DNA from: a virus
IMG/VR virus record: IMGVR_UViG_3300038701_002991
Location: 1 to 31,968 of that record
Length of the DNA: 31,968 bases
Reading direction: 5' to 3' (one strand)
The translations under genes and the position numbers were made by a program. Within the stretch, counting starts at the first letter, position 1; the number at the start of each line of letters is the position of its first letter. A model generated the notes under the pieces. The model made no database searches. It saw only the letters and a list, made by a program, of their open reading frames with translations, and was not told where the DNA came from. Shown here piece after piece: positions 81 to 26,019 of this stretch.

Positions 81-112
81 TTTGGTAGTTTCATTTATAT
101 GCCTTATCTTTA
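81..112 (+). promoter_or_regulatory. host-type promoter P1
   Basis: TTTG (81-84), 20 nt, TATCTTTA (105-112). This matches the Bacteroidetes -33 TTTG / -7 TAnnTTTG layout apart from the last base. The next start codon, at 138, is 26 nt downstream. Confidence 0.8.
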
Positions 113-137
113 TACTATAATTAAAAACACATATATC

Positions 138-440
138 ATGAAAAAATCAAATCAAAGTGCTAATTTCTCATCATTCCATGGAACTGTTATAAAAACCTCT
201 GTTAACCATTTGAAACAAGTTGTTGGAGAACCAGAATGGTCTGATAACACAGGTGAAGATAAAACTAATTTTAAATGGGTTTGTGAAACTCATTTTGGAG
301 ATGTTGTTACAATCTATGATTGGAAGGAATATAGATCTATCTCTGAGGATGAAATTATTGAATTTCATTTAGGTGGTTTCTCTAAGTCTTCTACTGAAGA
401 TGGTAAGATTGAATTATTAATTGCTTTAGCTAACATATAA
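138..440 (+). CDS. hypothetical protein, 100 aa
   Basis: No family recognised. The protein is small and soluble, with a short basic start (MKKSNQ) and a mixed acidic body. A longer reading frame starts at 99, but that ATG lies inside the promoter P1 -7 region, so the ATG at 138, with an A-rich leader typical of Bacteroidetes genes, is preferred. The stop codon overlaps the next start (TAATG at 438-442), so it is probably translationally coupled to the 57-aa gene after it. The two form one short unit between P1 and the terminator at 631-676. An early host-takeover role is possible from this layout but is only inference. Confidence 0.7.
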   Translation: MKKSNQSANFSSFHGTVIKTSVNHLKQVVGEPEWSDNTGEDKTNFKWVCETHFGDVVTIYDWKEYRSISEDEIIEFHLGGFSKSSTEDGKIELLIALANI

Positions 441-613
441 TGGAACAATCTAAAGACTTTATTAAATTCGTTTTAACCCAGGTATTCGGCGTTCAATTAG
501 ATTTAATTGAATCATATGACTTTGAGGATATGAAAACTATTTTAGTTGAATACCTCGCAGTTAATCCGGATGTTGATCTCTATGCTTTAGGAAAATTGTT
601 TTTGAAACAATAG
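440..613 (+). CDS. hypothetical small protein, 57 aa
   Basis: The protein has 57 residues, beginning MEQSKDFIKFVLTQVFG and ending in GKLFLKQ. It is acidic and helical-looking, with hydrophobic residues spaced as in a small helical bundle. No family is recognised. Its start overlaps the stop of the preceding gene (TAATG), a usual coupling signal. It ends in TAG, 17 nt before a strong terminator, and is the second and last gene of the P1 unit. Coding is supported by the coupling, the ATG start and its amino-acid make-up. Confidence 0.6.
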   Translation: MEQSKDFIKFVLTQVFGVQLDLIESYDFEDMKTILVEYLAVNPDVDLYALGKLFLKQ

Positions 614-630
614 TTATAATATTTTTATGG

Positions 631-676
631 TAGTGCTCGTGCTGTGTTTTTTAATTCAGCGGGCACTATTTTTTTT
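631..676 (+). terminator. rho-independent terminator
   Basis: Two-part stem TAGTGC (631-636) / GCACTA (663-668) and GCTG (641-644) / CAGC (657-660), then eight T. It ends the P1 unit. Confidence 0.8.
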
Positions 677-685
677 GTCTTTTTA

Positions 686-717
686 TTTGTCTATCTCAAA
701 CTTTCTTTGTATCTTTA
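686..717 (+). promoter_or_regulatory. host-type promoter P2
   Basis: TTTG (686-689), 20 nt, TATCTTTA (710-717). No ATG follows at the usual 16-31 nt, so it may drive a small RNA or read through towards P3. Confidence 0.7.
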
Positions 718-785
718 CTCTGGAGCTTTGTTGGTAAACGATAGTTGCTACCACTCTTTAGTCCCCAGTGTATAGGAAAATTCGA

Positions 786-817
786 TTTGTCTAATTCATT
801 ATTTCTCCGTATCTTTA
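786..817 (+). promoter_or_regulatory. host-type promoter P3
   Basis: TTTG (786-789), 20 nt, TATCTTTA (810-817), then TAGTA as in P4. An ATG lies at 844, 27 nt after the -7 element, the same spacing as for P1. Confidence 0.75.
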
Positions 818-843
818 TAGTACAAGACTGCCCGTAAGGTGTA

Positions 844-987
844 ATGAACAGGCTCCATTGTCGGCATACGCGTGGTGTTTCAACCCGGGTGCCCGTTGGG
901 CCTTCCAGCCCCTCCCTCGATCGTTACTATAAAGATACAAACTTTATCTCATATAGACACGCTTTTTCTCAATTATTTTTCAGATAA
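844..987 (+). CDS. possible 47-aa ORF behind promoter P3
   Basis: This frame opens with ATG at the expected distance from P3 and runs 47 codons to TAA at 985-987, inside the left arm of a 14-bp inverted repeat. It starts MNRLHCRHTRGV. The first half is unusually GC-rich for this genome and gives an Arg/Pro/Ser-rich peptide, which looks more like a translated structured RNA than a protein. The second half is ordinary. It overlaps a leftward -7 element at 930-937. The segment could equally be a non-coding RNA. Only the promoter spacing supports coding. Confidence 0.25.
   Translation: MNRLHCRHTRGVSTRVPVGPSSPSLDRYYKDTNFISYRHAFSQLFFR
930..960 (-). promoter_or_regulatory. leftward promoter M1, weak -33
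   Basis: TAAAGATA (930-937) reads TATCTTTA leftward, and the following TAGTA also matches P3 and P4. At 20 nt the -33 triplet is GTG (958-960) rather than TTG. It faces P3 across about 110 nt. Confidence 0.45.
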
Positions 988-1036
988 TCAATTGGCCCAA
1001 ATCGTTTGGCGCCACAAAGTTTCTGAAAAATAATTG
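970..1036. repeat. 14-bp perfect inverted repeat
   Basis: CAATTATTTTTCAG (970-983) pairs perfectly with CTGAAAAATAATTG (1023-1036) across a 39-nt spacer that itself contains TTGGCCCAA and TTGGCGCC palindromes. Read rightward it is followed by TGATTTTTG, so it could end the P2/P3 transcripts. It lies directly in front of promoter P4. Confidence 0.8.
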
Positions 1037-1045
1037 TGATTTTTG

Positions 1046-1076
1046 TTGGTTTGTATGGATTAATTCCTTATCTTTA
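1046..1076 (+). promoter_or_regulatory. host-type promoter P4
   Basis: TTG (1046-1048), 20 nt, TATCTTTA (1069-1076). The gene start at 1099 is 23 nt downstream. Confidence 0.75.
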
Positions 1077-1098
1077 TAGTATATTAAAAACAATAATT

Positions 1099-1314
1099 AT
1101 GTCATATTACCAATTTGAAAAGCAATTACAAGAGAAGTTGGGCCTAAGATACAGACCACAAAGATTTCTAAACAGAGTGTTAGCAATCACTTGTTCTAAC
1201 AACACTACTAAAGCTTCTGATGTAATGCTAGGGTGTGACGGTAGATATTGGGTAGTATGTCTATCTGATGCAAGTAGATTATATAGACAAGGTTACCAAT
1301 TCGCTACAAGATAA
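1099..1314 (+). CDS. hypothetical small protein, 71 aa
   Basis: A 71-residue basic protein that I do not recognise. It has an aromatic/basic N-terminal half (SYYQFEKQLQEKLGL, then YRPQRFLNR) and a middle with DGRYWVVCLSDASRLYRQGY, resembling a small beta-rich fold. A longer frame opens at 1036, but this would pass through promoter P4, so the ATG at 1099, with leader AAAAACAATAATT, is the real start. It is the only gene of the P4 unit and is followed by a strong terminator at 1363-1394. Single-gene units with host-type promoters suggest early expression. Confidence 0.65.
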   Translation: MSYYQFEKQLQEKLGLRYRPQRFLNRVLAITCSNNTTKASDVMLGCDGRYWVVCLSDASRLYRQGYQFATR

Positions 1315-1362
1315 ATATAACGCCTAGGGTCGTTTAACCCTTATTCATTTTATGTAATTTTG

Positions 1363-1394
1363 CCCACTGGGGGTTGTGTCCTAGTGGGTTTTTT
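1363..1394 (+). terminator. rho-independent terminator
   Basis: CCCACT (1363-1368) / AGTGGG (1383-1388), 14-nt loop, then six T. Ends the P4 unit. Confidence 0.8.
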
Positions 1395-1420
1395 GTTTGC
1401 CTTTCTTTGCTGACACCTCG

Positions 1421-1430
1421 TTGGCGCCAA
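1421..1430. repeat. TTGGCGCCAA palindrome
   Basis: Ten-base perfect palindrome just downstream of leftward promoter M2. The core TTGGCGCC recurs at 1006-1013, and the related TTGGCGCGCC is at 1816-1825. These are the only such GC-rich palindromes I noticed in this AT-rich region, so they may be a protein-binding site. Confidence 0.5.
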
Positions 1431-1440
1431 AGCATTTGGA

Positions 1441-1471
1441 TAAAGATACGAAATATATTTAACGTATACAA
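1441..1471 (-). promoter_or_regulatory. leftward host-type promoter M2
   Basis: Leftward TTG (1469-1471), 20 nt, TATCTTTA (1441-1448). An ATG lies only 9 nt downstream and opens a 33-codon frame that looks non-native, so its product is unclear. Confidence 0.65.
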
Positions 1472-1513
1472 CCCTTGCGCGATATCTTTTTACGTACCTC
1501 TAGGGTATCAGTA

Positions 1514-1545
1514 TAAAGATACGTATATTATTTGAATTAAACAAA
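1514..1545 (-). promoter_or_regulatory. leftward host-type promoter M3
   Basis: Leftward TTTG (1542-1545), 20 nt, TATCTTTA (1514-1521), followed by TACTGATAC as in M4. No ORF follows at the usual spacing. Confidence 0.7.
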
Positions 1546-1563
1546 TGTTTTGCCCAATTCTTT

Positions 1564-1589
1564 TGACAAAAATACAATTGTAAAATTGT
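1564..1589 (-). terminator. leftward terminator-like hairpin
   Basis: ACAATT (1574-1579) / AATTGT (1584-1589) with a 4-nt loop. Read leftward it is followed by TATTTTTG. It would end the M4 transcript at about 165 nt. The stem is AT-rich and short. Confidence 0.45.
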
Positions 1590-1648
1590 TAATATTGAAA
1601 TATATTCAATGAAATCTTCTGTTGTTTGACAACTTTTCCATTCCACCC

Positions 1649-1720
1649 CTAGGATGCGCTGAACAACTTGTCAATGAAATTAGTTTTTCTTTGACAGATC
1701 TTCAATACGCTGGGGTGCAT
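1649..1720 (-). CDS. possible 23-aa peptide ORF in the M4 unit
   Basis: The first ATG after promoter M4, 20 nt beyond its -7 element, opens 23 codons (MHPSVLKICQRKTNFIDK, then LFSAS) ending in TAG. The start spacing fits other promoters here. The same stretch can fold (CACCCC / GGGGTG pairing within 1640-1720), so a non-coding RNA is an equal possibility. No family can be assigned to such a short peptide. Confidence 0.25.
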   Translation of the reverse strand: MHPSVLKICQRKTNFIDKLFSAS

Positions 1721-1740
1721 TTACCACTGAAGTATCAGTA

Positions 1741-1772
1741 TAAAGATACAAAAAATCTGTGAAATACACAAA
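1741..1772 (-). promoter_or_regulatory. leftward host-type promoter M4
   Basis: Leftward TTTG (1769-1772), 20 nt, TATCTTTA (1741-1748). The -33 element lies in a tandem 10-bp repeat, CAAATTTTCG at 1769-1778 and 1779-1788. Confidence 0.75.
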
Positions 1773-1788
1773 TTTTCGCAAATTTTCG

Positions 1789-2116
1789 TAGATTTATTTG
1801 CATAGGTGAAAAAAATTGGCGCGCCGCACTTTTCATATGTTCAATTTTTGTGTGCCAAAATGGGGTACTTTCCCCCCAATAGGTTTCAACCCGAATTGAC
1901 TAAAATCCCTCATTTTTCCTATAACCATGTCGTTTACAACGCTTTAACAAATCCCAGACCATTTTCCAGGCCCAAAACTAGGTTCAAAATCATATCAAAA
2001 CAATATAAAACACCATCCTTTTAGCCCAAAACAACAATTAAAAGTCTATTATCATCTCCTTATGTTCTTATTATGGTTAGTTGTATGGTACTTAATGAGG
2101 TTATGGTTGATGTTTA
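1789..2116. other. non-coding stretch at the convergent junction
   Basis: No convincing gene on either strand. A 72-codon rightward frame beginning with GTG at 1806 has Pro/Phe/Asn-rich residues and no promoter, and is judged spurious. The stretch contains TTGGCGCGCC (1816-1825), is C-rich on the top strand, and lies where rightward and leftward gene sets meet. No clear terminator is visible after the last leftward gene. Confidence 0.6.
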
Positions 2117-2518
2117 TTATCCTCTCTCGATTTCTTTTTTAATGAGCTTTATCTTTTCTATATCTAATTCAGAATCAGTGATTGCTAAAATTAAATTTTG
2201 AAGTTCGTGAATGTACTCCATCTTCTTATTGGCCCCGTTATCATTTTGATATCTGTAGTGACTAATAGTGAGTCTTATATCCCCGTGTATCCATCCCCAT
2301 GGGTATAATTCAAACCCTGCTTGTGTAAGTATCTTATTATCTATCTTTACCCCTCTGCATTGAGATATGTGGATAGATGGACTCAGTGTGTATTCTCCGT
2401 TTGCTTTAGGTTTCTCTGATAACCTTACGTTGATGAATTCTTCTCCGATCTTTCCTACTTCGAATATTGTATTTCTATATTCAATTAGGCTTCCTATTCT
2501 TAGCTCTGATGCTTTCAT
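2117..2518 (-). CDS. hypothetical protein, 133 aa
   Basis: The N-terminus (MKASELRIGSLIEYRNTIFEVGKI) suggests a small SH3-like/KOW-type barrel: 'ELRIGSLIEY' then 'FEVGKIGEEFINV'. The opening resembles that of the protein at 11084-11452 (MKKSDLRSGMIVEDR). The middle, VDNKILTQAGFELYPWGWIH-like, recurs in Bacteroidetes phage and prophage proteins, but I know no function. The C-terminus (YIHELQNLILAITDSELD) is a helix followed by a basic tail. It is the last gene of the leftward block and ends without a visible terminator. Confidence 0.65.
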   Translation of the reverse strand: MKASELRIGSLIEYRNTIFEVGKIGEEFINVRLSEKPKANGEYTLSPSIHISQCRGVKIDNKILTQAGFELYPWGWIHGDIRLTISHYRYQNDNGANKKMEYIHELQNLILAITDSELDIEKIKLIKKEIERG

Positions 2519-2548
2519 AGTTGTATTGTATGTATTTATTGTATTGGA

Positions 2549-2731
2549 TTATATCCACTGTCTTTTGCACCCTTTACACTGGTACATTATCTTGTCTAGT
2601 TCTGCATCATAGCTTTCTTCCATGGGTTGTTTACAGCATGGTGATTCTTCTCCCTTTAATAGTATATAGGCTACTGCCATTGCTGTTATCACCATTCCTA
2701 GTAATACCATGTATGCTAGTATATTATCCAT
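2549..2731 (-). CDS. small membrane protein with zinc-ribbon-like cysteines, 60 aa
   Basis: One N-terminal membrane segment (about residues 4-25, ILAYMVLLGMVITAMAVAYI) is followed by a short soluble tail carrying two cysteine pairs, SPCCKQP and QCKGCKRQW, spaced like a small zinc ribbon (about residues 32-33 and 52-55). Unknown function. Its first eight bases overlap the end of the upstream 38-aa membrane gene (2724-2840), so the two are probably coupled. Small membrane proteins next to one another could be lysis- or exclusion-related, but no holin signature is evident. Confidence 0.6.
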   Translation of the reverse strand: MDNILAYMVLLGMVITAMAVAYILLKGEESPCCKQPMEESYDAELDKIMYQCKGCKRQWI

Positions 2732-2840
2732 TTACAGTTACTTGGATCATTCCTAGTATGTACATTATGATAATCGTTGTGATTATACAAGTGCATATGC
2801 CACTGTAGACTTCATATAGTCCTTTGATTGCTTTCTTCAT
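2724..2840 (-). CDS. small single-pass membrane protein, 38 aa
   Basis: MKKAIKGLYEVYSG is followed by a hydrophobic stretch (about residues 15-33, CTCIITTIIIMYILGMI) and a short polar end. The positive N-terminus predicts an inside orientation. Its ATG overlaps the stop of the preceding gene (ATGA, 2837-2840), and its stop overlaps the start of the following one (ATGGATAA, 2724-2731), so it sits in a tightly coupled chain; this supports it being real despite its size. No family recognised. A holin-like or membrane-anchor role is possible but unproven. Confidence 0.55.
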   Translation of the reverse strand: MKKAIKGLYEVYSGICTCIITTIIIMYILGMIQVTVNG

Positions 2841-3109
2841 GATATTGTGAATGTATGTTTTAGTCTCCCTTTCTCATTTATTTCTTTCATGAGTTCCTCG
2901 TGATCTTTCAATGTTCTAAGCTTATGTCCAATTGGATACAATACTGTAACCTCCTTTGTAGTAATTAATAGTTTAGAACTCGGTGTTGATCTCCTACTGA
3001 GTATTTTTTCCTCTATCCATTCGTCAATCAATTCTTTAGGGATTGGTTTATTGGAGTAGGGTGCCTTTATAAGCATCTCCTCAAACTGTTGAACTAATCC
3101 TTTCATCAA
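2837..3109 (-). CDS. hypothetical protein, 90 aa
   Basis: Soluble 90-residue protein, helix-rich at the start (MMKGLVQQFEEMLIKAPYS) with a basic 'EEKILSRRSTPSSKLL' middle and a beta-like end. No family recognised. It has 4-nt ATGA overlaps with both neighbours (3106-3109 and 2837-2840), so it is part of one polycistronic leftward message from about 3351 to 2549. The second Met could equally be the start. Confidence 0.6.
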   Translation of the reverse strand: MMKGLVQQFEEMLIKAPYSNKPIPKELIDEWIEEKILSRRSTPSSKLLITTKEVTVLYPIGHKLRTLKDHEELMKEINEKGRLKHTFTIS

Positions 3110-3351
3110 TTCTCTAAAGTTACTCTTCCCTTAAAATCCTCAAATTCTTCGTGGAATGTGCTTGACATATACCCTACTGGCGAACCCATGTGATCTCCTG
3201 CAACAACTGCAGTCCCGGTGAAACTTCCATCTGGGTGTATTTTAGAAGCTAATATGATGGTTCCTGTGTCAGGACTTTTCATTAGCCTTGGATATTCTAA
3301 TTCCTGATTATCAGCTACTGCTGCTGTTGGTTCATCTACTTGAGTTTTCAT
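3106..3351 (-). CDS. hypothetical protein, 81 aa
   Basis: Residues 19-60 form a compact beta-rich stretch (YPRLMKSPDTGTIILASK, then GSFTGTAVVAGD), a pattern I associate with short uncharacterised phage proteins. The N-terminal 18 residues are acidic and probably disordered. Function unknown. It is the first gene of the coupled chain 3351-2549 and lies directly downstream of the tRNA-Ala gene, 16 nt away, so tRNA processing would release its message. Confidence 0.6.
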   Translation of the reverse strand: MKTQVDEPTAAVADNQELEYPRLMKSPDTGTIILASKIHPDGSFTGTAVVAGDHMGSPVGYMSSTFHEEFEDFKGRVTLEN

Positions 3352-3366
3352 ATATTTATATTTTAG

Positions 3367-3439
3367 TGGATCTGATGAGACTCGAACTCATATCCTTCTC
3401 CTTGCAAAGGAGGTGCTCAGCCAATTGAGCTACAAACCC
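3367..3439 (-). tRNA. tRNA-Ala (UGC)
   Basis: Complete cloverleaf on the minus strand: acceptor GGGTTTG / CAGATCC (two G-U pairs), D-arm with TAGCTCAATTGGCTGAGC, anticodon stem CTCCT / AGGAG with loop TTGCA giving UGC, T-arm TATGAGTTCGAGTCTCATC, discriminator A. The terminal CCA is not encoded. Confidence 0.93.
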
Positions 3440-3465
3440 TGGAACCGAACTAAACCCGCGATTTT

Positions 3466-3502
3466 GTAAAGGATGCGAGTGTTCGGCGTTCACTCTCCTT
3501 GT
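3466..3502 (-). other. hairpin upstream of tRNA-Ala
   Basis: GAGTG / CACTC closed below by AAGGA / TCCTT across a small internal loop, in a GC-richer spacer between the 56-aa gene and tRNA-Ala. It could be a processing or stability element. No ORF fits here. Confidence 0.35.
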
Positions 3503-3514
3503 AAATTTACTTTA

Positions 3515-3685
3515 TTAACCTATCTTTGAGACTCCTGCAGTCCTTTGAATTGTTCTGAAATTACTTGAGTCTAGGTTATAGCTATCTAATATAGCTCTAG
3601 CTTCTTCTTCTGAATGAGCTAGGATCTCTACTCTCATCCTGTTGTTTGCCCTATTCTCAAATAGGTATGTGCTTAGTGGTGGCAT
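3515..3685 (-). CDS. hypothetical small protein, 56 aa
   Basis: The peptide starts MPPLSTYLFENRANNRMR and continues with a helix containing AHSEEEARAILDSYNLDSS, the shape of a small alpha/beta protein that acts on or modifies a target. The 'SEEEARAIL' pattern is common in tiny phage proteins of unknown function. Its ATG lies 1 nt after the stop of the 53-aa gene before it, so both are read from the same message. Coding is supported by codon quality and tight spacing. Confidence 0.55.
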   Translation of the reverse strand: MPPLSTYLFENRANNRMRVEILAHSEEEARAILDSYNLDSSNFRTIQRTAGVSKIG

Positions 3686-3686
3686 A

Positions 3687-3848
3687 TTATACTTCTTGTA
3701 TTGTCATAGTTACCTTTGATAAATTCTTATCCCTTCTCATCTCTCGCTGAATCTTTCCTGATTCAATATCTCTCTTTATCTCCACGATGTCACTGATTCC
3801 ATTTTCATTAACTGTAAGTGTGGTTACTATTCTAAAAGTCCTGCTCAT
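3687..3848 (-). CDS. hypothetical small protein, 53 aa
   Basis: Highly charged 53-residue protein (MSRTFRIVTTLTVNENG start) with a strand, then a basic helix (DIVEIKRDIESGKIQREMRR) and a final strand. It begins inside the stop of the HExxH protein gene (ATGA, 3845-3848) and ends 1 nt before the next start. No family recognised. The tight coupling to a putative metallopeptidase gene suggests a shared role, such as an inhibitor or partner, but that is speculation. Confidence 0.55.
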   Translation of the reverse strand: MSRTFRIVTTLTVNENGISDIVEIKRDIESGKIQREMRRDKNLSKVTMTIQEV

Positions 3849-4519
3849 ATTATTACTTTTTTATAGTCATCTTTAGAAGTTATCTTCTCGAATAGATATT
3901 CTGATAATAGAGCTTGCCACTCTTGGCTATCGTAAGATAGATCTGTCATAGTTTCTTTTGCCCATGTATGGATAATGTGTACAATCTCATGAACCACTGT
4001 TATGTGATCTTCTACGCTATCGATTGATAAGATCAGTCTATACTGATTATCATCTCTATTCTTGCTATACAGGCAGGTAACAAAATCTCCTTCTCTATCT
4101 AATGGTATGAAATCTTCTGTCTCATAGTTATCATTAAGATACTTCATCCTATTGTCATACTCTCCTTCCAATACATCTAGGTACCATACTGATGGTGCTA
4201 TCCTGATTGATTTAGTATTGATAGTTTTGATAGATCTCTTTGCTCTTTTTATCCTGGAAAGAATAATTCGCTTCACATTCTCAATATCAATTCTGCGCTT
4301 CAAAGATAACATATCTGGGTTAGATATATCAATCAAGCTATCATAAGTAACTCCATAGCATTTATCTTCTCTATCGACATAGATGTATGTGTTACCATCG
4401 GAGTCAAAGGCTCCTTTATAACTCATTGTTATTGATACTGCCCTCATCCACTCTACGAAGTTGTCGAAACTGTTGGCTATTACAGCTATCAGTCTTTCGT
4501 TATGCTGTGCTGACTTCAT
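3845..4519 (-). CDS. HExxH putative zinc metallopeptidase-like protein, 224 aa
   Basis: Near the C-terminus is a helix with VVHEIVHIIHTW (H177, E178, H181), the zincin metal-binding and catalytic pattern, followed by an acidic helix (SQEWQALLSEYLFEKI) that may supply the third ligand. The first 140 residues (FDNFVEWMRAVSITMSY, later NTYIYVDREDKCYGVTY) are not recognised; this part may be a separate substrate domain. No signal peptide, so it would act in the cytoplasm or be packaged. It follows the lipoprotein gene by 3 nt and overlaps the next gene by ATGA. The HExxH match alone does not prove peptidase activity. Confidence 0.55.
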   Translation of the reverse strand: MKSAQHNERLIAVIANSFDNFVEWMRAVSITMSYKGAFDSDGNTYIYVDREDKCYGVTYDSLIDISNPDMLSLKRRIDIENVKRIILSRIKRAKRSIKTINTKSIRIAPSVWYLDVLEGEYDNRMKYLNDNYETEDFIPLDREGDFVTCLYSKNRDDNQYRLILSIDSVEDHITVVHEIVHIIHTWAKETMTDLSYDSQEWQALLSEYLFEKITSKDDYKKVII

Positions 4520-4522
4520 ATG

Positions 4523-4765
4523 TTAGTTATCTATTGGGCACCCTACTGAAGCCATAGCTTCTTTTCTCTCTAGCAATAACCTATTAATTGTTGCCCAATC
4601 CTTATCTGCAAATGGAATTGCTGGATCAATTAATGGTTCTAATAGTGGTGCATAGTATTCTGAAATCTGTTGTCTCAGCTCTCTACAGCTTTGTCCTATC
4701 TCTACTTCCTTAGTACACGACCCTAGCATTAGGATCATCGTAAATAATACAATTAATTTTTTCAT
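4523..4765 (-). CDS. phage-encoded lipoprotein, 80 aa
   Basis: Clear lipoprotein signal: MKKLIVLFTMILMLGSC, with lipobox LGSC giving cleavage before Cys17. The mature N-terminus CTKEVE has Lys/Glu after the lipidated cysteine, reminiscent of the charged export signal that sends Bacteroidetes lipoproteins to the cell surface. The mature part (about 63 residues) is helical, with two further cysteines (C27, C76) that could form a disulfide. Known phage lipoproteins such as T5 Llp block superinfection at the outer membrane receptor; a similar role is a reasonable inference. The gene precedes the HExxH gene by 3 nt. Confidence 0.75.
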   Translation of the reverse strand: MKKLIVLFTMILMLGSCTKEVEIGQSCRELRQQISEYYAPLLEPLIDPAIPFADKDWATINRLLLERKEAMASVGCPIDN

Positions 4766-4795
4766 CTGTCTGTATTTATATTAATAATTGTTTAG

Positions 4796-5107: not shown

Positions 5108-5596
5108 TTATTTTACTATCTTAATTTCTCTTCCTAGCTCTTTACAAACTTGCTCTAGAGTCATTTCTTGCACGTCTGGAATCTCCTTCATAAAACGCCA
5201 CTCGTCTGTTGAGTATTCTTTACCATTATTAAAATCAGTTTGATCATCGAACTCTACACATACATACTTATATCGTGCCTGGCCAGGTAGTATTGCTACT
5301 AAAGTTCTCTCTACGAAGTGTTTTTCTTTATCATCTGACACCAAGACTCTTCTTGGTAGTTGATCAAGTTCATACAATTCTTCCAGAGTGACTATTTTCA
5401 TATGAGTAGACTCTACAAATGCCAGATTAAAGTTACAGAAACATCCATCCTTTAGCCCGTAATAAATAAAGATGTGTCCTGTATCTTCACTTGCACTGCC
5501 CTTGTATCCTCTTACGTCTACACCTTTTGATTTAAAATATTCTACTATCTTAGCTCCCTCTTCTAAGGTTCTTGCCTTTACTACTATGTTATCCAT
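5108..5596 (-). CDS. hypothetical protein, 162 aa
   Basis: Residues 1-50 (MDNIVVKARTLEEGAKIVEYFKSKGVDVRGY) look like an alpha/beta domain of the kind found in small phage proteins. The middle has a beta segment with KYVCVEFDDQTDF and DEWRFMKEI. The C-terminus MTLEQVCKELGREIKIVK matches a short module seen in many phage proteins, also present at the end of the 11084-11452 protein. Function unknown. It is the first gene after host-type promoter M5 (25 nt), so it is likely expressed from host polymerase, and is followed within 10 nt by tRNA-Asp. Confidence 0.7.
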   Translation of the reverse strand: MDNIVVKARTLEEGAKIVEYFKSKGVDVRGYKGSASEDTGHIFIYYGLKDGCFCNFNLAFVESTHMKIVTLEELYELDQLPRRVLVSDDKEKHFVERTLVAILPGQARYKYVCVEFDDQTDFNNGKEYSTDEWRFMKEIPDVQEMTLEQVCKELGREIKIVK

Positions 5597-5620: not shown

Positions 5621-5651
5621 TAAAGATACAATAATTTTTTAATCTACCAAA
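5621..5651 (-). promoter_or_regulatory. host-type promoter M5
   Basis: Leftward TTTG (5648-5651), 19 nt, TATCTTTA (5621-5628) followed by TACCATAA as in M10. Gene start 5596 is 25 nt downstream. Confidence 0.8.
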
Positions 5652-10205: not shown

Positions 10206-10240
10206 TTATATTTTTAAGATGGTTCTGCGGCAATATTACC

Positions 10241-10272
10241 TAAAAGTAAGCCTGATCATAGTTCAGGCTTAC
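10241..10272 (-). terminator. leftward terminator-like hairpin
   Basis: GTAAGCCTGA (10246-10255) / TCAGGCTTAC (10263-10272), 10 perfect pairs, 7-nt loop, followed leftward by TTTTA. It sits after the putative RNA at 10293-10377 and before the portal block. Confidence 0.65.
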
Positions 10273-10383: not shown

Positions 10384-10418
10384 GTAATCGGATTACAAAG
10401 TGTACTTTACAAAAGTAC
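10384..10418. repeat. two adjacent palindromes
   Basis: GTAATC-G-GATTAC (10384-10396) and GTACTTT-ACA-AAAGTAC (10402-10418). The second has a 7-bp stem with a 3-nt loop. Both look like protein-binding sites or small hairpins. Confidence 0.6.
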
Positions 10419-10437
10419 TTTTTCTTCTAATATAGTG

Positions 10438-10473
10438 AGTTAAAGATAACTCATTGTTATTGAATGAGTTATC
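10438..10473 (-). terminator. 11-bp perfect hairpin, possible terminator
   Basis: GATAACTCATT (10445-10455) / AATGAGTTATC (10463-10473), 7-nt loop. Leftward it is followed by only TTTAACTC, so it is a weak terminator candidate for the HD-protein gene or alternatively an operator; GAGTTA / TAACTC also pair within 10437-10452. Confidence 0.45.
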
Positions 10474-13777: not shown

Positions 13778-13960
13778 TTATTTTAATCCTATTACATTTG
13801 AAACTTTAGGCAATATTGACAATGCTGTATCCTCGAAATTAATTTTCATAATTTCTAATTCACCATGTTCATATTTAATTCTGAACTCTAAATCATCATT
13901 TATCTTAATAGTGATTCTATCCGCCTCTTGTGCAGGTTGTTTATCCACCAGTACTTTCAT
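13778..13960 (-). CDS. hypothetical small protein, 60 aa
   Basis: MKVLVDKQPAQEADRITIKI, then NDDLEFRIKYEHGELEIMK: a beta-strand-rich small protein of alternating hydrophobic and acidic residues, likely a single beta-sheet domain. Function unknown. It is the first gene of the unit controlled by host-type promoter M6 (31 nt upstream) and lies 5 nt before the PEP-synthase-like gene. It could be a partner of that enzyme, but nothing in the sequence shows it. Confidence 0.6.
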   Translation of the reverse strand: MKVLVDKQPAQEADRITIKINDDLEFRIKYEHGELEIMKINFEDTALSILPKVSNVIGLK

Positions 13961-13990: not shown

Positions 13991-14022
13991 TAAAGATACA
14001 AACAATAATAATACCAACCAAA
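13991..14022 (-). promoter_or_regulatory. host-type promoter M6
   Basis: Leftward TTTG (14019-14022), 20 nt, TATCTTTA (13991-13998). The gene start at 13960 is 31 nt downstream. It heads the unit containing the PEP-synthase-like and HD-hydrolase genes. Confidence 0.8.
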
Positions 14023-18568: not shown

Positions 18569-18682
18569 AATCCCCTTTATTATTTATAACCTTATTTTTC
18601 TTTTTCATCTATTATATTGAGTTAAAATAGTTAATTGATAATCAATATTTTACAATGCAGATTTTTTACGGGTGTGAAAATA
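18569..18682. other. 114-nt spacer
   Basis: No ORF. Contains a palindrome ATTGAT-A-ATCAAT near 18635-18650 and A/T-rich sequence. No host-type promoter is seen. Confidence 0.5.
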
Positions 18683-19802: not shown

Positions 19803-20093
19803 TCAATTGTAATATAATTGCGTCAATATTTTGTTGACCCACTCTCTTGCTTGATCTTCTGTGGAAAATTCCTTAGCAAGGGTGATCCATCTCCATATGC
19901 AATTAGGATTACCGTCAGAATTAATATCATCTTTGATAATTTGGAATTTGACCTTATAGACATATGTATCTTTAATATCTTTTTTAGCAATGGAGCCGCA
20001 AACATTGCCCTTAAATTTTATGTCAGTGTAAGAATTACTAAAAGACCTGTACCTTCCAGTGGGCCTGTGTACCTTAAAAGTAAATTTTTTCAT
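19803..20093 (-). CDS. hypothetical protein, 96 aa
   Basis: A small beta-rich protein beginning MKKFTFKVHRPTGRYRSF, with KDTYVYKVKFQIIKDD and a helix STEDQAREWVNKILTQLY at the end. The order (strands, then one helix with EEDQAREWV) suggests a compact alpha/beta module such as an RRM-like or ubiquitin-like fold; no specific family. It is the first gene behind host-type promoter M7 (23 nt), followed by the row leading to the phage RNA polymerase. Confidence 0.65.
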   Translation of the reverse strand: MKKFTFKVHRPTGRYRSFSNSYTDIKFKGNVCGSIAKKDIKDTYVYKVKFQIIKDDINSDGNPNCIWRWITLAKEFSTEDQAREWVNKILTQLYYN

Positions 20094-20115: not shown

Positions 20116-20146
20116 TAAATATACGACAAGATATTGAATTAAACAA
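20116..20146 (-). promoter_or_regulatory. host-type promoter M7
   Basis: Leftward TTG (20144-20146), 20 nt, TATATTTA (20116-20123). Gene start 20093 is 23 nt on. It adjoins the terminator of the upstream unit. Confidence 0.75.
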
Positions 20147-20148
20147 CA

Positions 20149-20183
20149 AAAAAGGGAAAAGTTTTTTACACCCTTCCCTTTTT
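20149..20183 (-). terminator. strong terminator, usable in both directions
   Basis: AAAAAGGGAA (20149-20158) / TTCCCTTTTT (20174-20183), 10 pairs. It follows the gene 20198-20647 by 15 nt and touches promoter M7, so one unit ends where the next begins. Confidence 0.85.
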
Positions 20184-20197
20184 CTAAATAAAAACAA

Positions 20198-21005: not shown

Positions 21006-21443
21006 TTACTTTTTTACTAGATTTCTATATCTTTTTAATTGTTTCAATTTATTTTGATAATTAGTCTCGCTCAACTGATTCAATTCATCACGTCTTTTAT
21101 AAGCAGCTTCATTGTTTTTCTTAGTTGAATAATATTCAGAACTAACATCTGATTGTTTAATAGCCTTGATAACCATTCTTCTGACCTGAGTCATTGTTTT
21201 GTTAGATAATTTTTCACACAGCTCTTTCATTTTTTTAGAAGCGTGTGTTAATTGGCACCCTTCAATATCCAATAGATATCTAAAGTTGGCAACCTGCATG
21301 CGAAAACTTCCTACTGAGGTATTACCTATTACACCATCTACTAGCGCCTGTTCGGTAATTCCAATTCCGTTCATATTCCACTTGGCCATATAATAGGCTA
21401 TTGTAAGTTCCTGATTTGTCCAAATTCTTTTAGAAGTTTTCAT
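21006..21443 (-). CDS. hypothetical DNA-binding-like protein, 145 aa
   Basis: Starts MKTSKRIWTNQELTIAYYMAKWNM, a helix pattern often seen in phage regulators and endonuclease-associated proteins, followed by LDIEGCQLTHASKKMKELCEK and a basic C-terminus ending KLKQLKRYRNLVKK. The pattern WTNQELTIAYYMAKW suggests a helix-turn-helix like that in small DNA-binding proteins. Not assigned to a family. It is the first gene after host-type promoter M8 (28 nt), so likely an early protein. 3 nt separate it from the frameshifted gene. Confidence 0.6.
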   Translation of the reverse strand: MKTSKRIWTNQELTIAYYMAKWNMNGIGITEQALVDGVIGNTSVGSFRMQVANFRYLLDIEGCQLTHASKKMKELCEKLSNKTMTQVRRMVIKAIKQSDVSSEYYSTKKNNEAAYKRRDELNQLSETNYQNKLKQLKRYRNLVKK

Positions 21444-21470
21444 AATGCGTGTTTAATATGTTTTATATCG

Positions 21471-21501
21471 TAAAGATACAAACTTAATTATTATCAATCA
21501 A
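21471..21501 (-). promoter_or_regulatory. host-type promoter M8
   Basis: Leftward TTG (21499-21501), 20 nt, TATCTTTA (21471-21478). The 145-aa gene starts 28 nt on. Confidence 0.75.
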
Positions 21502-21508
21502 CAAATAT

Positions 21509-21931
21509 CTAATATTTTTTCCAATTTTCTACATTGTCATCTAAATACTCTGTCAACTCTCTCATAAAATTGATATGAGATACTGGCACTTTTGAATACT
21601 GAAATCCATACTTTCGCTTAGTTAAATCCTTATGAACATAGATTAAGTCTTCAATTGAGAATATTGAAAAATCATTCTTTTCATCTTCCTTATCATACTC
21701 AATTGTTTCGATCAATTCCTTAGATTGTGAGAATAGTATTTTAATACTTTGTTCTCTGTAACCCATTGCTGTCATCGTCAGCCAATTCTTAACCCTAGCA
21801 TAATTCTCCTTCGAATTATACATTCTAAGAAATCCTAATACATAATCAATCTTCTGATCTACATTTTTATACTTCTTAGCATTAGTTCTAATGATCTGCC
21901 AACGAATATTGAATTTGTTCACTCTAGCCAT
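21509..21931 (-). CDS. hypothetical protein, 140 aa
   Basis: Begins MARVNKFNIRWQIIRTNAKKY, basic, followed by helices with KIDYVLGFLRMYNSKENYAR and an acidic part YDKEDEKNDFSIFSIEDLIY. A longer frame opens at 21982 but crosses promoter M9 (21947-21977), so ATG at 21931 is preferred; it lies 16 nt from the -7 element. All-helical, basic, no enzymatic motif. Unknown function; alone in its unit, directly followed by the next promoter, M8. Confidence 0.6.
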   Translation of the reverse strand: MARVNKFNIRWQIIRTNAKKYKNVDQKIDYVLGFLRMYNSKENYARVKNWLTMTAMGYREQSIKILFSQSKELIETIEYDKEDEKNDFSIFSIEDLIYVHKDLTKRKYGFQYSKVPVSHINFMRELTEYLDDNVENWKKY

Positions 21932-21946
21932 AATGTTATTTTGACC

Positions 21947-21977
21947 TAAAGATACAGATATTATTTTAAACTTCCAA
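21947..21977 (-). promoter_or_regulatory. host-type promoter M9
   Basis: Leftward TTG (21975-21977), 20 nt, TATCTTTA (21947-21954). It overlaps the 3' end of the gene 21966-22193, and defines the start of the next gene at 21931. Confidence 0.75.
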
Positions 21978-22193
21978 CACATTTCTAGTTGCCACTATTG
22001 CCTCTGCTCTAGTATATCCACACTTATCTACAAAATCTTCGATCATCTGATGTTCATCAACAGTTTCTTTTATCATATCATTCGAACCCCAGAATACCGA
22101 TACGTTCTCTCCAGATGTGGCCATGTCTAAGATAGCCCTGTGTGCTAGTGTAAAATTTGTCTTTACAACTACTGATGGTTCTATATTACTCAT
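21966..22193 (-). CDS. hypothetical small protein, 75 aa
   Basis: Core SVFWGSNDMIKETVDEHQMIE then EDFVDKCGYTRAEAIVATRN: a small alpha/beta protein with a final helix resembling 'aeaIvatRnvl', typical of compact phage regulators. It overlaps the end of the primase-helicase gene by 8 nt (22186-22193), so is translationally coupled to it and may assist replication, which is inference. No family assigned. Confidence 0.55.
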   Translation of the reverse strand: MSNIEPSVVVKTNFTLAHRAILDMATSGENVSVFWGSNDMIKETVDEHQMIEDFVDKCGYTRAEAIVATRNVLEV

Positions 22194-24051
22194 TTTGTTC
22201 TTTTAATTTTAATGCTTTTTGTAACCAATCTCTGTCACGATGGTCTCCTTCTAATTCCATTGATTCTTCATCTACAGGTATATACCTTCCTGATGGCCTG
22301 TCATATTCAAAAAATACTTCGGCCTCACGTTCTCCTAAATTGTTTTGCTTAACTTTCAAAACCTTAATCATCACCACTCCCAGTTTTCTATAAACTGTTA
22401 ATCCGTGATATGACATTTCAAAGAAAACCGAGGAACCTTTTACTGAATAAAAATCCGGAACTTTATATTCCCCTGTTTTTTCATCGATACCCATTTTAAA
22501 AGGGTGGGCGATCAAAATTACCATCACCTTCATTTGATGAGAGAAATGTGTAATCCTTCTAAAAATTTCCTCTACCTTCTCATGCCCTGAAAATCTACCC
22601 TTGATAGATAACATATTGAAGGGGTCAATTACTACATATTTAGGATTTTTACCCCGGGCTCTAAGTTCTTTAATCTTCTGAGCCAGCTTTTCAAGTATAG
22701 TATTGATATTACCTCCAACTGATGTGGCATCCAAATGATGGATCATTTCTGTGATAAAATCGTAGGCCTCATCAAATTCATCCATATTATCTGGAACAAA
22801 CCAGCTTGGGCAAGTGATATCAGTACCTACCATTTTTCGAATTAACTTGATGATGTGTTCTTGTGGTGTTTGCTCGTATCCTACAACCAGAGTTTCGCTC
22901 ATGTGTAATCGGGCTAAATCTATGATCAATTGATCAGTCCATTCAGTTTTACCATGACCAGGAATCCCTGTAATTGTTAATACTCCGGTGCCCTTGAATC
23001 TAAAGACATCTGCAAAGTTGGACAAAGATATCTCATCTCCTACTCTATCACCCTCTTTGACTGTTTCTATAACAGCACTTTTAAGTTGTTGTGGATTTAT
23101 AAACCCATCCGATTCTTCATCCTTAGGAACATCGGATTCTTCATTTGACATATAATCAGAATAATCCAAATAAGGTTCCTCTTCTTCAGCAACCCTTTCA
23201 AATTTATAGGGCCATTTTAACTGTGGGTATTCATTTGCAATTTGGGCAGCCTCTTGAAACCTTTTCTTGTTCTCTGGGGAATATTTAAAAGCTGATTCTG
23301 CATAGTCAATCACAAAACTTAAATCTTCCTTAGGATGATAAAATCCAAACTTGGCCAAGTCGAGTAAGGCTACCTGAATGTAGTGAAAATTATTGTTAGT
23401 CTTTTGTGAAATATCTTCAGCTAACACTGTGTCAAAAAAGTCTTCGGGATCTTCCCACAGATTTCTAGTATCATCTAATTTTTCTAATTCAACCTCCTGT
23501 GTGGCCACCTCTTTAAGATAAACCATGGCTGGCCACACATCCTTATTTACAAGAATATAAGGATCATATGTCATGATCAAACAATCAGTAACGCTCAGAT
23601 AATCTACGTGCCCGTAGATACTAAACTCATCTACCAGCTGCTTTCCGATCTGCCTATATGAGTCTTGGTTTACTATTTCAGGCTGTACATAATATAGAAC
23701 CTTGACACCATTTCCAGAAGGAGATATCATAGCAGCTAATACGTGATCAGTACTATCCATGATATCTTGCTTGACTTCTTCTAGGTCATCTTCTATATCA
23801 TCAATATCTAAAATGATTAAACCACTAGCTTCTATGAAGTCATTTTTCTTTCGAAAGTCTCGAAATCTACCATGCATAGCAACAGTAGGCAGTCTCTTTT
23901 TTTGTTCTGAATCGCCTGACCTAACTTTATTGACTATATCTTTATAGGCTCCATTCTTAATAGAGTCGAGAATCTCAAAAATTAAAACATCTTTCTTTAC
24001 TTCTGTATCTCTAGTATTGCTGAAGTAACTTACCTTTGTCCCTAATATCAT
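22186..24051 (-). CDS. BT4734-like primase plus DnaB-type helicase, 621 aa
   Basis: Residues 1-175 match the BT4734/VirE N-terminal family: GRFRDFRKKNDF (61-72), ASGLIILDIDD (75-85) and SPSGNGVKVLYYV (110-122) are its acidic and Gly-Lys motifs. The C-terminal half is a RecA-fold replicative helicase domain: Walker A TGIPGHGKTE (361-370, K368), Walker B KYVVIDPFNML (471-481, D476), and RFSGHEKVEE then HPFKMG for nucleotide and DNA loops. The linker 180-320 is variable. The combination fits a fused primase-helicase at the replication fork. The ATG overlaps the stop of the 56-aa gene (ATGA), and the gene overlaps the following gene by 8 nt. Confidence 0.85.
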   Translation of the reverse strand: MILGTKVSYFSNTRDTEVKKDVLIFEILDSIKNGAYKDIVNKVRSGDSEQKKRLPTVAMHGRFRDFRKKNDFIEASGLIILDIDDIEDDLEEVKQDIMDSTDHVLAAMISPSGNGVKVLYYVQPEIVNQDSYRQIGKQLVDEFSIYGHVDYLSVTDCLIMTYDPYILVNKDVWPAMVYLKEVATQEVELEKLDDTRNLWEDPEDFFDTVLAEDISQKTNNNFHYIQVALLDLAKFGFYHPKEDLSFVIDYAESAFKYSPENKKRFQEAAQIANEYPQLKWPYKFERVAEEEEPYLDYSDYMSNEESDVPKDEESDGFINPQQLKSAVIETVKEGDRVGDEISLSNFADVFRFKGTGVLTITGIPGHGKTEWTDQLIIDLARLHMSETLVVGYEQTPQEHIIKLIRKMVGTDITCPSWFVPDNMDEFDEAYDFITEMIHHLDATSVGGNINTILEKLAQKIKELRARGKNPKYVVIDPFNMLSIKGRFSGHEKVEEIFRRITHFSHQMKVMVILIAHPFKMGIDEKTGEYKVPDFYSVKGSSVFFEMSYHGLTVYRKLGVVMIKVLKVKQNNLGEREAEVFFEYDRPSGRYIPVDEESMELEGDHRDRDWLQKALKLKEQNE

Positions 24052-24218
24052 TTACTAGCTAAATAATGGATTCTTGCCAGCTCTTCTGCTGACTCAATTT
24101 GTCTTTTCAATTCTCTTCTCTTTTTAAACCTCCAAAAGGGCAAATTTATTCTCTGGATTTCAAGATCAATAGCTATATCCAGATAATCCTGCATAGAGGT
24201 TATTTTATTTGTTTGCAT
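24048..24218 (-). CDS. hypothetical small protein, 56 aa
   Basis: MQTNKITSMQDYLDIAIDLE then a helical basic part INLPFWRFKKRRELKRQIE. It bridges the initiator-like gene and the primase-helicase: it starts 14 nt before the former ends, and its stop overlaps the start of the helicase (ATGA, 24048-24051). This tight chain and the clean frame argue that it is real. Possible role as a helicase-loader or cofactor by position only. Confidence 0.6.
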   Translation of the reverse strand: MQTNKITSMQDYLDIAIDLEIQRINLPFWRFKKRRELKRQIESAEELARIHYLASK

Positions 24219-24960
24219 AAATATAGGTATATTCTTTTAATTCTCCACGTTGAATCTTTTTATTTTCAACAAAAAGTACTCTCTTAATATCTCTACCATA
24301 TCTAGTAGATTTGATTCCATTGCCTCGCTTATTACCCTGACCATCTGTTTGATAAACTCTGATTACATAAGTATCGTCATCTGATAACCCCTGAGCTATC
24401 TCATAAGTGATTTCATCACCATATTTTAAGTCTATCTTTTCGGCTGCCAAAAACGATTCCCCTTCTTTAGTCCTGAGCGCCTCTTCCAAGTATTTGTCAA
24501 ATTTGGATTTTCTAAAAATGGTTTCAGGATTCAGGTGTTTTGACATTATAGAATCATCCTTCCAAGCTATATATCTATTGGCAATAACTTTCTTGATATC
24601 ATCAACAGAATGTTCTTTGAGTCGTTCTCTCAGTGGTGTGTTATATGCTGAGGTTTTCGGATTGAACTTACGCTTATACAAACCATTCATAAAGTCAATT
24701 ATTTCAATCACCTCTGGAGTTGTTTGTTCTTTCTCTAGGATTTTTTTTGCCTTAGAATATTCACTCCATCTAATATAACCCATCTCGTGTAAAGAAACTA
24801 GATCTTGCCTAACTTTAGCTATCTTTAATTTTTTCTTAACCTTAGCCAAAGTCAGTTCAGGATCCTTTTCTCTAAGTAACAATATAGTGATTAAAATACC
24901 CCTTTGAGATGCTGTTGGTGCATCCAATATTTGAGAAGCTTTCTTAATTAATAATTGCAT
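24205..24960 (-). CDS. replication initiation / replisome organiser-like protein, 251 aa
   Basis: Residues 100-170 match the conserved phage C-terminal domain (Phg_2220_C) found in replisome organisers: FNPKTSAYNTPLRERLKEH, then DDIKKVIANRYIAWKDDSIM and LNPETIFRKSKFDKYLEEAL. The first 100 residues carry winged-helix-like segments (KLKIAKVRQDLVSLHEMGYI). Such proteins bind the origin and load the helicase. Here the gene precedes a 56-aa gene and the primase-helicase, the expected order. A weak promoter-like element lies 22 nt before the start. The terminal 50 residues add a basic region. Confidence 0.75.
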   Translation of the reverse strand: MQLLIKKASQILDAPTASQRGILITILLLREKDPELTLAKVKKKLKIAKVRQDLVSLHEMGYIRWSEYSKAKKILEKEQTTPEVIEIIDFMNGLYKRKFNPKTSAYNTPLRERLKEHSVDDIKKVIANRYIAWKDDSIMSKHLNPETIFRKSKFDKYLEEALRTKEGESFLAAEKIDLKYGDEITYEIAQGLSDDDTYVIRVYQTDGQGNKRGNGIKSTRYGRDIKRVLFVENKKIQRGELKEYTYIYANK

Positions 24961-25046
24961 AAAATATTTCTATTAATACAATAGAGATACACAAGATATG
25001 ATATCTCACCATGATCTTTTAACTGCTTTTCTGTAAATTTTTTCAT
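24948..25046 (-). CDS. possible 32-aa peptide ORF
   Basis: MKKFTEKQLKDHGEISYLVY then ten or so residues. It has an ATG 11 nt after the upstream gene stop and overlaps the initiator-like gene by 13 nt in another frame. It might be a small protein or an out-of-frame leader. Evidence is only position and start. Confidence 0.3.
   Translation of the reverse strand: MKKFTEKQLKDHGEISYLVYLYCINRNILCNY
24982..25012 (-). promoter_or_regulatory. weak promoter-like element M11
   Basis: Leftward TATCTCTA (24982-24989) 22 nt before the start at 24960, but the -33 triplet 20 nt upstream is ATG (25010-25012), not TTG. It may be a weak promoter of the replication genes. Confidence 0.3.
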
Positions 25047-25056
25047 ATCGTTTGTT

Positions 25057-25437
25057 TTAAATTAATTCTAAAATATCTAAACTGTATCCATTCCCATTTG
25101 TGCTTATAACACGGACAAACCCATCATCATCCCTTACTGTCACTTTAGCTATTTTTATAACAGTAGCTCCCCCCTGGCTATACTTGGATCTATAAATAGC
25201 ATATGAGCCTACCAAAGCTTTAGTCAAAGTCTCCTGAAGTTGAGCATTTGGTTCTTCCTCTACTATCTCTCTAGTAACAGAATCTGGTTCAATATCACCT
25301 GACATTTGTTTAATAATGTCTTGTTTTTTCCACTCGAGTATTCCGAGCAGTTCAAAGGCATTCATCCCATCATTTTGAGAACGAACACAAAAATGTTCGT
25401 TCTCATTTATTGATACTTCTAATTTATAATTTTTCAT
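25057..25437 (-). CDS. hypothetical protein, 126 aa
   Basis: Starts MKNYKLEVSINENEHFCVRS, then a helix LLGILEWKKQDIIKQMSG; the middle EEPNAQLQETLTKALVGSYA and the end with TVRDDDGFVRVISTNGN look like a mixed alpha/beta fold. No family recognised. Codons 9-18 lie in a perfect 11-bp inverted repeat (25377-25404). It follows the cysteine-peptidase-like gene by 2 nt, in the unit from promoter M10. Confidence 0.6.
   Translation of the reverse strand: MKNYKLEVSINENEHFCVRSQNDGMNAFELLGILEWKKQDIIKQMSGDIEPDSVTREIVEEEPNAQLQETLTKALVGSYAIYRSKYSQGGATVIKIAKVTVRDDDGFVRVISTNGNGYSLDILELI
25377..25404. repeat. 11-bp perfect inverted repeat within a gene
   Basis: GAGAACGAACA (25377-25387) / TGTTCGTTCTC (25394-25404), 6-nt loop, near the 5' end of the 126-aa coding region. 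Could be an operator, an mRNA hairpin, or chance. Confidence 0.75.
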
Positions 25438-25439
25438 GT

Positions 25440-25964
25440 TTATTCTATTTTATATGCTTCCTCAATTCTTGTTCTTGCTTTTTCAGCATCGCTGTAGTTA
25501 CCATATATCACCCCATCTTTTATAGTGAACATATGTCCTTTGACTGAGATGAGGTATACTCCTTTGGGATATCTTTCGATGAATCTTTCTGTGGTGAATT
25601 TACCCCAAGCCATTTTACCCCTTTTTCGATACCATCTTCTAAATAGGATCTTTGTAGAGTGCAGTTCTGGAATTAGCTCACCTAGTTCAGAAATAGATTT
25701 TCCAAAGGCCTCTTTAATCTGCGGTAGCTTCTCGTTTAAGATATAAGTTCTAGTTCCCTTCTTATTCTTTCTTTCGAAATTTTCAGCTACCCACTTATGA
25801 GCCTCTTCATATGAGATATCAAAAGCTGCTTCTACAGCTCTCACTACACAATCATTTCTCTCCGATTTTTCTAAATCAGACTGACTATCTCTATCTGGCT
25901 TAGCATACTGCAATGGTTGGCTGGCAGAAGTATAACTTACCGTGATAATTTTTTCTACTTGCAT
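25440..25964 (-). CDS. papain-like fold protein, putative cysteine peptidase, 174 aa
   Basis: SERNDCVVRAVEAAFDISYEEA (start about residue 35) carries the candidate catalytic Cys39 at the head of a helix, as in papain-like families. GVYLISVKGHMFTIKDGVIY (135-154) carries His144 on a strand, and D150 or N156 could be the third residue. The pattern 'NDC..RA ... G.Y.v.v.GH...i.dG' is common in phage proteins, where the role is uncertain. It could process phage proteins or act as an amidase. First gene of unit M10; start with A-rich leader. Confidence 0.6.
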   Translation of the reverse strand: MQVEKIITVSYTSASQPLQYAKPDRDSQSDLEKSERNDCVVRAVEAAFDISYEEAHKWVAENFERKNKKGTRTYILNEKLPQIKEAFGKSISELGELIPELHSTKILFRRWYRKRGKMAWGKFTTERFIERYPKGVYLISVKGHMFTIKDGVIYGNYSDAEKARTRIEEAYKIE

Positions 25965-25987
25965 AATTGTTGTTTTTATTTATGGTA

Positions 25988-26019
25988 TAAATATACAATA
26001 AAATAATTAACAAACCAAA
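25988..26019 (-). promoter_or_regulatory. host-type promoter M10
   Basis: Leftward TTTG (26016-26019), 20 nt, TATATTTA (25988-25995), then TACCATAA as in M5. The start at 25964 is 24 nt away. The -33 element is inside the T-run of the upstream terminator. Confidence 0.8.

Follow-up and report, generated by a model that had tools for sequence, protein, structure and literature searches.

In the Bacteroidetes, promoters read by the primary sigma factor (sigma-ABfr or sigma-A) follow the layout TTTG ... TAnnTTTG (PMC9723704, PMC7366714 and PMC6847099). The box occupies -12 to -5 in Flavobacterium psychrophilum (PMC9723704), and in F. johnsoniae transcription starts 4-5 nt past the box and A is the favoured base at -3 of the start codon (PMC6847099). 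This study concerns a family of short two-part sites, TTG-N19/20-TAT[CA]TTTA, in the virus record IMGVR_UViG_3300038701_002991, a fragment analysed over its whole length of 31,968 bases (64% A+T; 12% outside gene calls) and referred to below as the window. The sites are a real but modest variant of the known signal, a host-type family in uniform variant form. On sequence grounds, it is highly probable that they are strong, uniform promoters read by the host RNA polymerase with its primary sigma-A.

Site family and layout

The original prediction had listed 13 such sites on both strands, and all of them were found where claimed, with N20 in 12 (N19 at 5621), TTTG in register in eight and TTG in the other five, A as the final box base in 13/13 and C at the fourth box base in 11 (A at 20116 and 25988). 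It had also proposed a motif search against random expectation, which gave 13 sites against a mean of 0.37 in 300 dinucleotide shuffles of the window (standard deviation 0.56, maximum 2), with the boxes outside genes; when only the non-coding bases were shuffled (1000 shuffles), the mean was 0.09 and the maximum 2. The claim that an ATG follows at 16-31 nt held for eight of the 13 sites, with a measured distance of 15-30 nt after the box, and failed at 686, 786, 1441, 1514 and 1741, where no ordinary gene begins at that distance.

The spacing is sharply defined, since a scan from 10 to 30 gave 12 sites at N20 and at most four at every other value. Relaxing the spacer to N18-21 added three plus-strand antisense sites (2321, 3327 and 7891), with one match in the reversed-pattern control. 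Exchanging the last box base for G left one site (3499, plus strand, antisense), and C or T left none in the window. The box without the TTG requirement occurs 30 times against 9.7 in shuffles, with many of these occurrences intragenic and lacking TTG. To the 13 listed sites we added a 14th, GTG-N20-TATCTTTA at 930-960 on the minus strand, which faces the promoter at 786. All 14 boxes lie in non-coding DNA, outside gene calls; eight of the sites stand ahead of genes and six in non-coding DNA at 600-2117 (Table 1).

Aligned on the box, the sites carry TTG at N20 in 12/14 cases, at N19 in one (5621) and GTG in one (930), followed by G at -13 (12/14), TAT at -12 to -10 (14/14), C at -9 (12/14) and TTTA at -8 to -5 (14/14); each has TAnnTTT at -12 to -6 without G at -10 or -9. 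The position of the F. psychrophilum box, together with the start distance in F. johnsoniae, makes the fifth base past the box the expected +1. This predicted start is a purine in all 14 sites and is preceded by a pyrimidine in 13, and seven of the eight gene-linked sites have A at -3 of the ATG. The window sites resemble the Bacteroidetes sigma-A promoter in TTG or TTTG at -33, in TAnnTTT at -12 to -6, in spacing, in a purine at the predicted start 5 nt on and in short predicted leaders without a Shine-Dalgarno sequence. They differ from it in the base at -5, which is A in 14/14 where G is the rule, and for this reason they are classed as a variant and not as canonical sigma-A promoters. Compared with F. 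johnsoniae (PMC6847099), their TTG and N20 are much stricter.

The layout recurs in related phages. By protein similarity, the window phage is kin to phages of Flavobacteriaceae and related to Cbastvirus, in which Cellulophaga phage phiST and Tenacibaculum phage Larrie are both classified. Its terminase is 70% identical to their counterparts, its helicase 59 and 61%, and its RNA polymerase 61% identical to both enzymes. A single-protein search of IMG/VR viral contigs found no relative of the window, and an alignment search gave four (G081, G082, G083 and G084, the last of 75.8 kb, were among those compared). In a tree of seven polymerases, with two of its four inner forks open, the window enzyme stands beside that of Larrie (support 96/94). 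Sites with the window layout are found in phiST (26 intergenic sites, +1 a purine in 24), Larrie and G084. The phiST sites likewise mostly have A at -5, and their spacers often start TGAGAAC or TGAAAAC, unlike those of the window.

At 20116 and 25988 the T tract of a terminator-like hairpin is fused directly to the -33 TTG (20116-20190 and 25988-26045, minus strand), as it is at phiST 22401 and 17670 and at Larrie 36189. The phiST gene directly preceding site 22401 matches window 26053-27615 (62% identity). An Rfam search of the window gave four tRNAs and three sub-threshold matches.

Table 1. Promoter sites, RNA polymerase gene and repeated blocks of the window (CDS, coding sequence)
Feature	Position	Strand	Context
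Promoter TTTG-N20-TATCTTTA	81..112	+	CDS 138-440, ATG 25 nt past box; terminator-like hairpin immediately upstream
Gene-less promoter TTTG-N20-TATCTTTA	686..717	+	Predicted start GGAGCTTT
Gene-less promoter	786..817	+	Opposes 930; first ATG: 47 codons, G at -3
Gene-less 14th site GTG-N20-TATCTTTA	930..960	-	Opposes 786
Promoter TTG-N20-TATCTTTA	1046..1076	+	CDS 1099-1314, ATG 22 nt past box
Gene-less promoter	1441..1471	-	First ATG 5 nt past box, 33 codons
Gene-less promoter	1514..1545	-	Downstream TACT-GATACCCT
Gene-less promoter	1741..1772	-	Downstream TACT-GATACTTC; first ATG: 23 codons, T at -3
Promoter TTTG-N19-TATCTTTA	5621..5651	-	CDS 5108-5596, ATG 24 nt past box
Likely phage-polymerase promoter	10418..10444	-	Repeated 27-base block upstream of portal and terminase genes
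Promoter TTTG-N20-TATCTTTA	13991..14022	-	CDS 13778-13960, ATG 30 nt past box
T7-like single-subunit RNA polymerase, 773 aa	16051..18372	-	PF00940, E 7.7e-45; phrog_414, E 2e-134
Likely phage-polymerase promoter	18600..18626	-	Repeated 27-base block upstream of polymerase gene
Promoter TTG-N20-TATATTTA	20116..20146	-	CDS 19803-20093, ATG 22 nt past box; adjoins terminator-like hairpin
Promoter TTG-N20-TATCTTTA	21471..21501	-	CDS 21006-21443, ATG 27 nt past box
Promoter TTG-N20-TATCTTTA	21947..21977	-	CDS 21509-21931, ATG 15 nt past box
Promoter TTTG-N20-TATATTTA	25988..26019	-	CDS 25440-25964, ATG 23 nt past box; adjoins terminator-like hairpin

Gene-less sites

The six sites in non-coding DNA (686, 786, 930, 1441, 1514 and 1741) would drive short non-coding transcripts, or act as another element, at 600-2117. 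In some of them, the predicted transcript begins with a sequence, about GATGCYYT, that also occurs at this place in other phage contigs. A TACT-GATAC continuation is found at 1514 and 1741, at phiST 2215 (TACT-GATGCTCT) and at Larrie 19610 and 19785 (TACT-GACACCCT); 686 and 1441 resemble it more loosely, in register, and 786 and 930 are unlike it. The likeness is suggestive of an RNA 5' end that the phages have in common, or of an operator at the start site.

A scan of IMG/VR for the strict form of this element gave 15 stretches, with TTG at N20 in five, or three distinct ones because L054/L064 and L058/L061 are near-copies, and at N19 in one. A wider form gave 24 stretches, of which 19 were new and eight of these 19 lay inside an open frame of at least 100 codons. 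Seven stretches of the first scan, each of at most 11.5 kb, had no protein match to the window, phiST or Larrie except for the helicase of L056, whose own occurrence of the element is without TTG, and the 19 new stretches had no such match. The strict element was found in none of 299 genomes of the host family, and a DNA similarity search of window 600-2120 against phiST, Larrie and L018-L021 gave a best E of only 0.02.

Scored against mononucleotide shuffles, the p1441 transcript stands out in folding (z -4.8 at 90 nt) and contains a terminator-like hairpin. The z values were -3.3 at 120 nt for p1741 and -2.0 at 160 nt for p1514, and the p687, p787 and p930 transcripts folded no more stably than their shuffles (lowest z -0.2).

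It is possible, though on balance unlikely, that the six sites do not serve RNAs but belong to another element, such as replication-origin transcription or decoys for RNA polymerase, or precede very short peptides. They are clustered where gene direction switches, and the facing pair 786/930, with its perfect 14-bp inverted repeat (809-822 / 925-938), resembles facing pairs that occur in phiST and in some of the IMG/VR contigs. At three of the sites an ATG within 60 nt opens a short reading frame (47, 33 and 23 codons), but none of the three has A at -3, and the shared start past the promoter points to a role for the transcript or for an operator overlapping it. A 53-codon GTG frame lies within the same region at 872-1033. 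Two further arrangements were observed. A block with TTGGCGCCA at its centre is present in inverted orientation at 997-1014 and 1422-1439, near the promoters at 1046 and 1441, as a possible operator. In L155 (3692-3801), two promoters face each other and their predicted transcript starts are almost inverted repeats of one another, which would allow either transcript to form a hairpin.

The base at -5 in hosts and phages

The host-side comparison was made with Flavobacteriaceae genomes and F. johnsoniae, which may not be the window phage's own host. In 594 upstream regions from 24 genomes belonging to the same family as a Flavobacteriaceae metagenome-assembled genome, TAnnTTTG occurred 205 times against 46 in reversed sequence (4.5-fold) and TAnnTTTA 208 times against 159, a mild 1.3-fold excess; boxes ending in T or C showed no excess over reversed sequence. 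The excess of A boxes was clear in a few genomes, for example G070 (24 vs 7), and absent in G022 (6 vs 12). Most of these hosts thus tolerate A at -5 as a minor form, and the 14/14 A in the window is a real departure.

Flavobacterial rRNA promoters were sampled from 30 loci (L069-L098), of which two were left out, L074 for its short length (113 bp) and L096 because it was a duplicate; TTG was allowed at N18-22 and second copies from one genome were counted. TTG-spaced TAnnTTTG was found in 22 of the 28 upstream regions, and the TTG-spaced boxes numbered 41 with G and 2 with A (1 and 2 in the reversed control). Among the six other regions, L090 had an A box only and five had none, four of these with 216 bp of upstream DNA or less. 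The rRNA promoters are like the window sites in TTG and the mostly N19-20 spacing and differ from them in a box that is mostly TATATTTG followed by CACCCGC or CAGCCGC, with G at -5; they often stand two or three in tandem. That the window A was copied from host rRNA promoters was rejected because of this G.

Across phages, the pattern TTG-N19/20-TAT[AC]TTTX gave A13 C0 G1 T0 in the window, A30 C0 G5 T6 in phiST and A1 C0 G11 T1 in Larrie, where G stands in 11 of the 12 A/G sites. By context, the 26 intergenic sites of phiST comprise 22 with A and four with G, and nine more lie inside annotated genes. Of the 15 sites in G084 (T[TG]G allowed), 13 had A, one had G and one had T. Counted without a context filter, G081 had G in 5/5 and G082 A in 2/2, and G083 had no sites. 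Of nine further Cellulophaga phage records, also counted without a context filter, eight had sites (0 to 4 in reversed controls): phi13:1, a relative of phiST, with 27 A and 4 G; phiSM with 6 G and 2 A; phi12:1 with 1 G; and, mixed (A/G), phi14:2 (5/5), phi10:1 (5/3), phi19:1 (4/3), phi17:2 (5/6) and phi38:1 (4/2). Elsewhere, TTTG-N20-TATCTTTATACTATA was found in 11 IMG/VR stretches, by a crude test non-coding in 11/11 and followed by ATTAAAA in five, as at window site 81; distant terminase relatives were found in two of these stretches and weaker matches in another two.

Judged from these genomes, A at -5 is a lineage trait, present in the window phage, phiST and G084, with G in Larrie, the nearest to the window phage by the polymerase tree. 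By parsimony on that small tree, the base would have changed at least twice, each time genome-wide. Since phiST and phiSM are recorded from one host isolate, Cellulophaga baltica MM#3, the choice of base must depend on more than the host if the phiSM sites are promoters; a host that imposes A at -5 is thus weakened as an explanation by this pair and by the tree.

The proposed mechanism is as follows. The host polymerase with sigma-A would contact TTG at -35 to -33 and TAT[C/A]TTTA at -12 to -5, the latter usually preceded by G at -13, and transcription would begin on a purine five bases past the box. From the eight gene-linked sites, early or middle genes would be transcribed with 11-26 nt leaders, the late genes and the phage polymerase gene would use a separate T7-like promoter, and A at -5 would be a form of the host TAHHTTTG box specific to certain phage lineages. 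Here we infer recognition by host sigma-A, the start sites, the timing and what A at -5 does. Spacing, the position in non-coding DNA, the base at the expected start and the short leaders all support the sigma-A layout proposed in the original prediction, and of the two readings offered there, a phage-optimised host promoter is the better one.

Several observations weigh against this mechanism. In F. johnsoniae (PMC6847099), G at -5 is nearly invariant and the -33 element weak; the window has A in 14/14, and its TTG is strong. Across 80 genomes from a Flavobacteriaceae family, the strict pattern TTTG-N19/20-TATCTTTA was near its reversed control, by per-genome counts judged by eye and unsummed, so that hosts do not commonly use promoters of this strict form. 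In phiST, a pyrimidine stands at -1 in 12 of the 26 intergenic sites, and the window pattern is thus not kept. Transcription is deduced from the sequence, and the comparison hosts are possibly not the phage's own. The G-type strict pattern was likewise near control in the same genomes except in G022, which has 65 TTTG-N19/20-TATCTTTG sites against 3 in its control, far above the other 79 genomes.

The special sigma preference offered as the other reading was not supported by the sigma search and the host counts given below, nor by the difference in the base between close relatives. It would require a phage-encoded factor, either a diverged sigma or a small protein altering host sigma-A, that makes the polymerase prefer A at -5, and we regard this as improbable. 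In its favour are the uniform A of the window in the face of the G favoured by most host genes, the genome-wide choice of A or G that varies among relatives, and the phiST and phiSM pair, for which the host is not decisive. No match to sigma-70 region 2 or 4 (PF04542 and PF04545) was found in any of five records, namely the window, itself a fragment, phiST, phi13:1, Larrie and G084, although the phage may carry a diverged factor or small co-factor despite this search. The TAnnTTTA excess in host genes further implies that host sigma-A may read the A box unaided. A contact between sigma region 1.2 and the -5 base was also considered.

The phage polymerase and the meaning of the promoters

That the boxes serve the T7-like RNA polymerase of the phage itself is highly improbable. 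The enzyme is encoded by the phage, but the boxes belong to a two-part arrangement of 31 bases as in host promoters, Larrie has G boxes despite the nearest enzyme, and a different, contiguous T7-like repeat precedes the polymerase and late genes in the window, phiST, Larrie and G084. In the window this is a near-identical 27-base block, TTTAACTCAMTATAWTAGAWGAAAAAG, at the two places given in Table 1, with one further match with 4 mismatches. The phiST version has six matches (at most 3 mismatches), two at corresponding places and four others. Larrie has its own block in two exact copies at corresponding places, of which the copy ahead of the polymerase gene falls within a small annotated open reading frame, and one match with 4 mismatches elsewhere. 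G084 has a block upstream of its polymerase and a second copy elsewhere, among the 60 listed of 110 repeated 16-mers. The patterns were derived by eye from the same sequences, so that a match without mismatches carries no independent weight; independent evidence comes from the repetition of the block and from where it lies in the four genomes. The blocks are likely promoters of the phage polymerase. The block at 10418-10444 has the ACTCACTATA core of the T7 promoter and goes with a T7-like polymerase in the window; its flanks are unlike those of T7, and the version of the block varies from relative to relative. The late-gene leader at 10206-10260 (minus strand) keeps TAGGYAATATTGCCGCARAACC in comparison with Larrie (L016 26950-27000, minus strand), possibly as an RNA element.

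Chance matches in A+T-rich DNA, suggested by the base composition of the window and the 30 occurrences of the box alone, are refuted by the shuffle controls, the sharp N20 peak and the recurrence in relatives, and their probability is negligible.

The T7-like polymerase with promoters of a separate type, the distribution of A among lineages and the shared start of some gene-less transcripts had no place in the original prediction. In the literature searched, no promoter description or map was found for these phages, and the sites provide a clear promoter map with predicted starts for this group, in which two polymerases with separate promoter types are indicated. They also offer short, defined promoters for Bacteroidetes genetics. 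The near-invariant last base of the Bacteroidetes box becomes a testable variable, for which phiST (A) and phiSM (mostly G) form a natural pair.

A more speculative proposal, which we regard as improbable, is that the -5 base is a phage-wide mark of own promoters: host boxes, those of rRNA above all, carry G, the window phage, phiST and G084 carry A, and Larrie and G081 keep G. If this were true, a factor of the A-lineage phages, or one induced by infection, would weaken G-type promoters and shut down host transcription, chiefly of rRNA, while phage promoters read by the same enzyme would be spared, and the wholesale flips between close relatives would record gain or loss of that factor.

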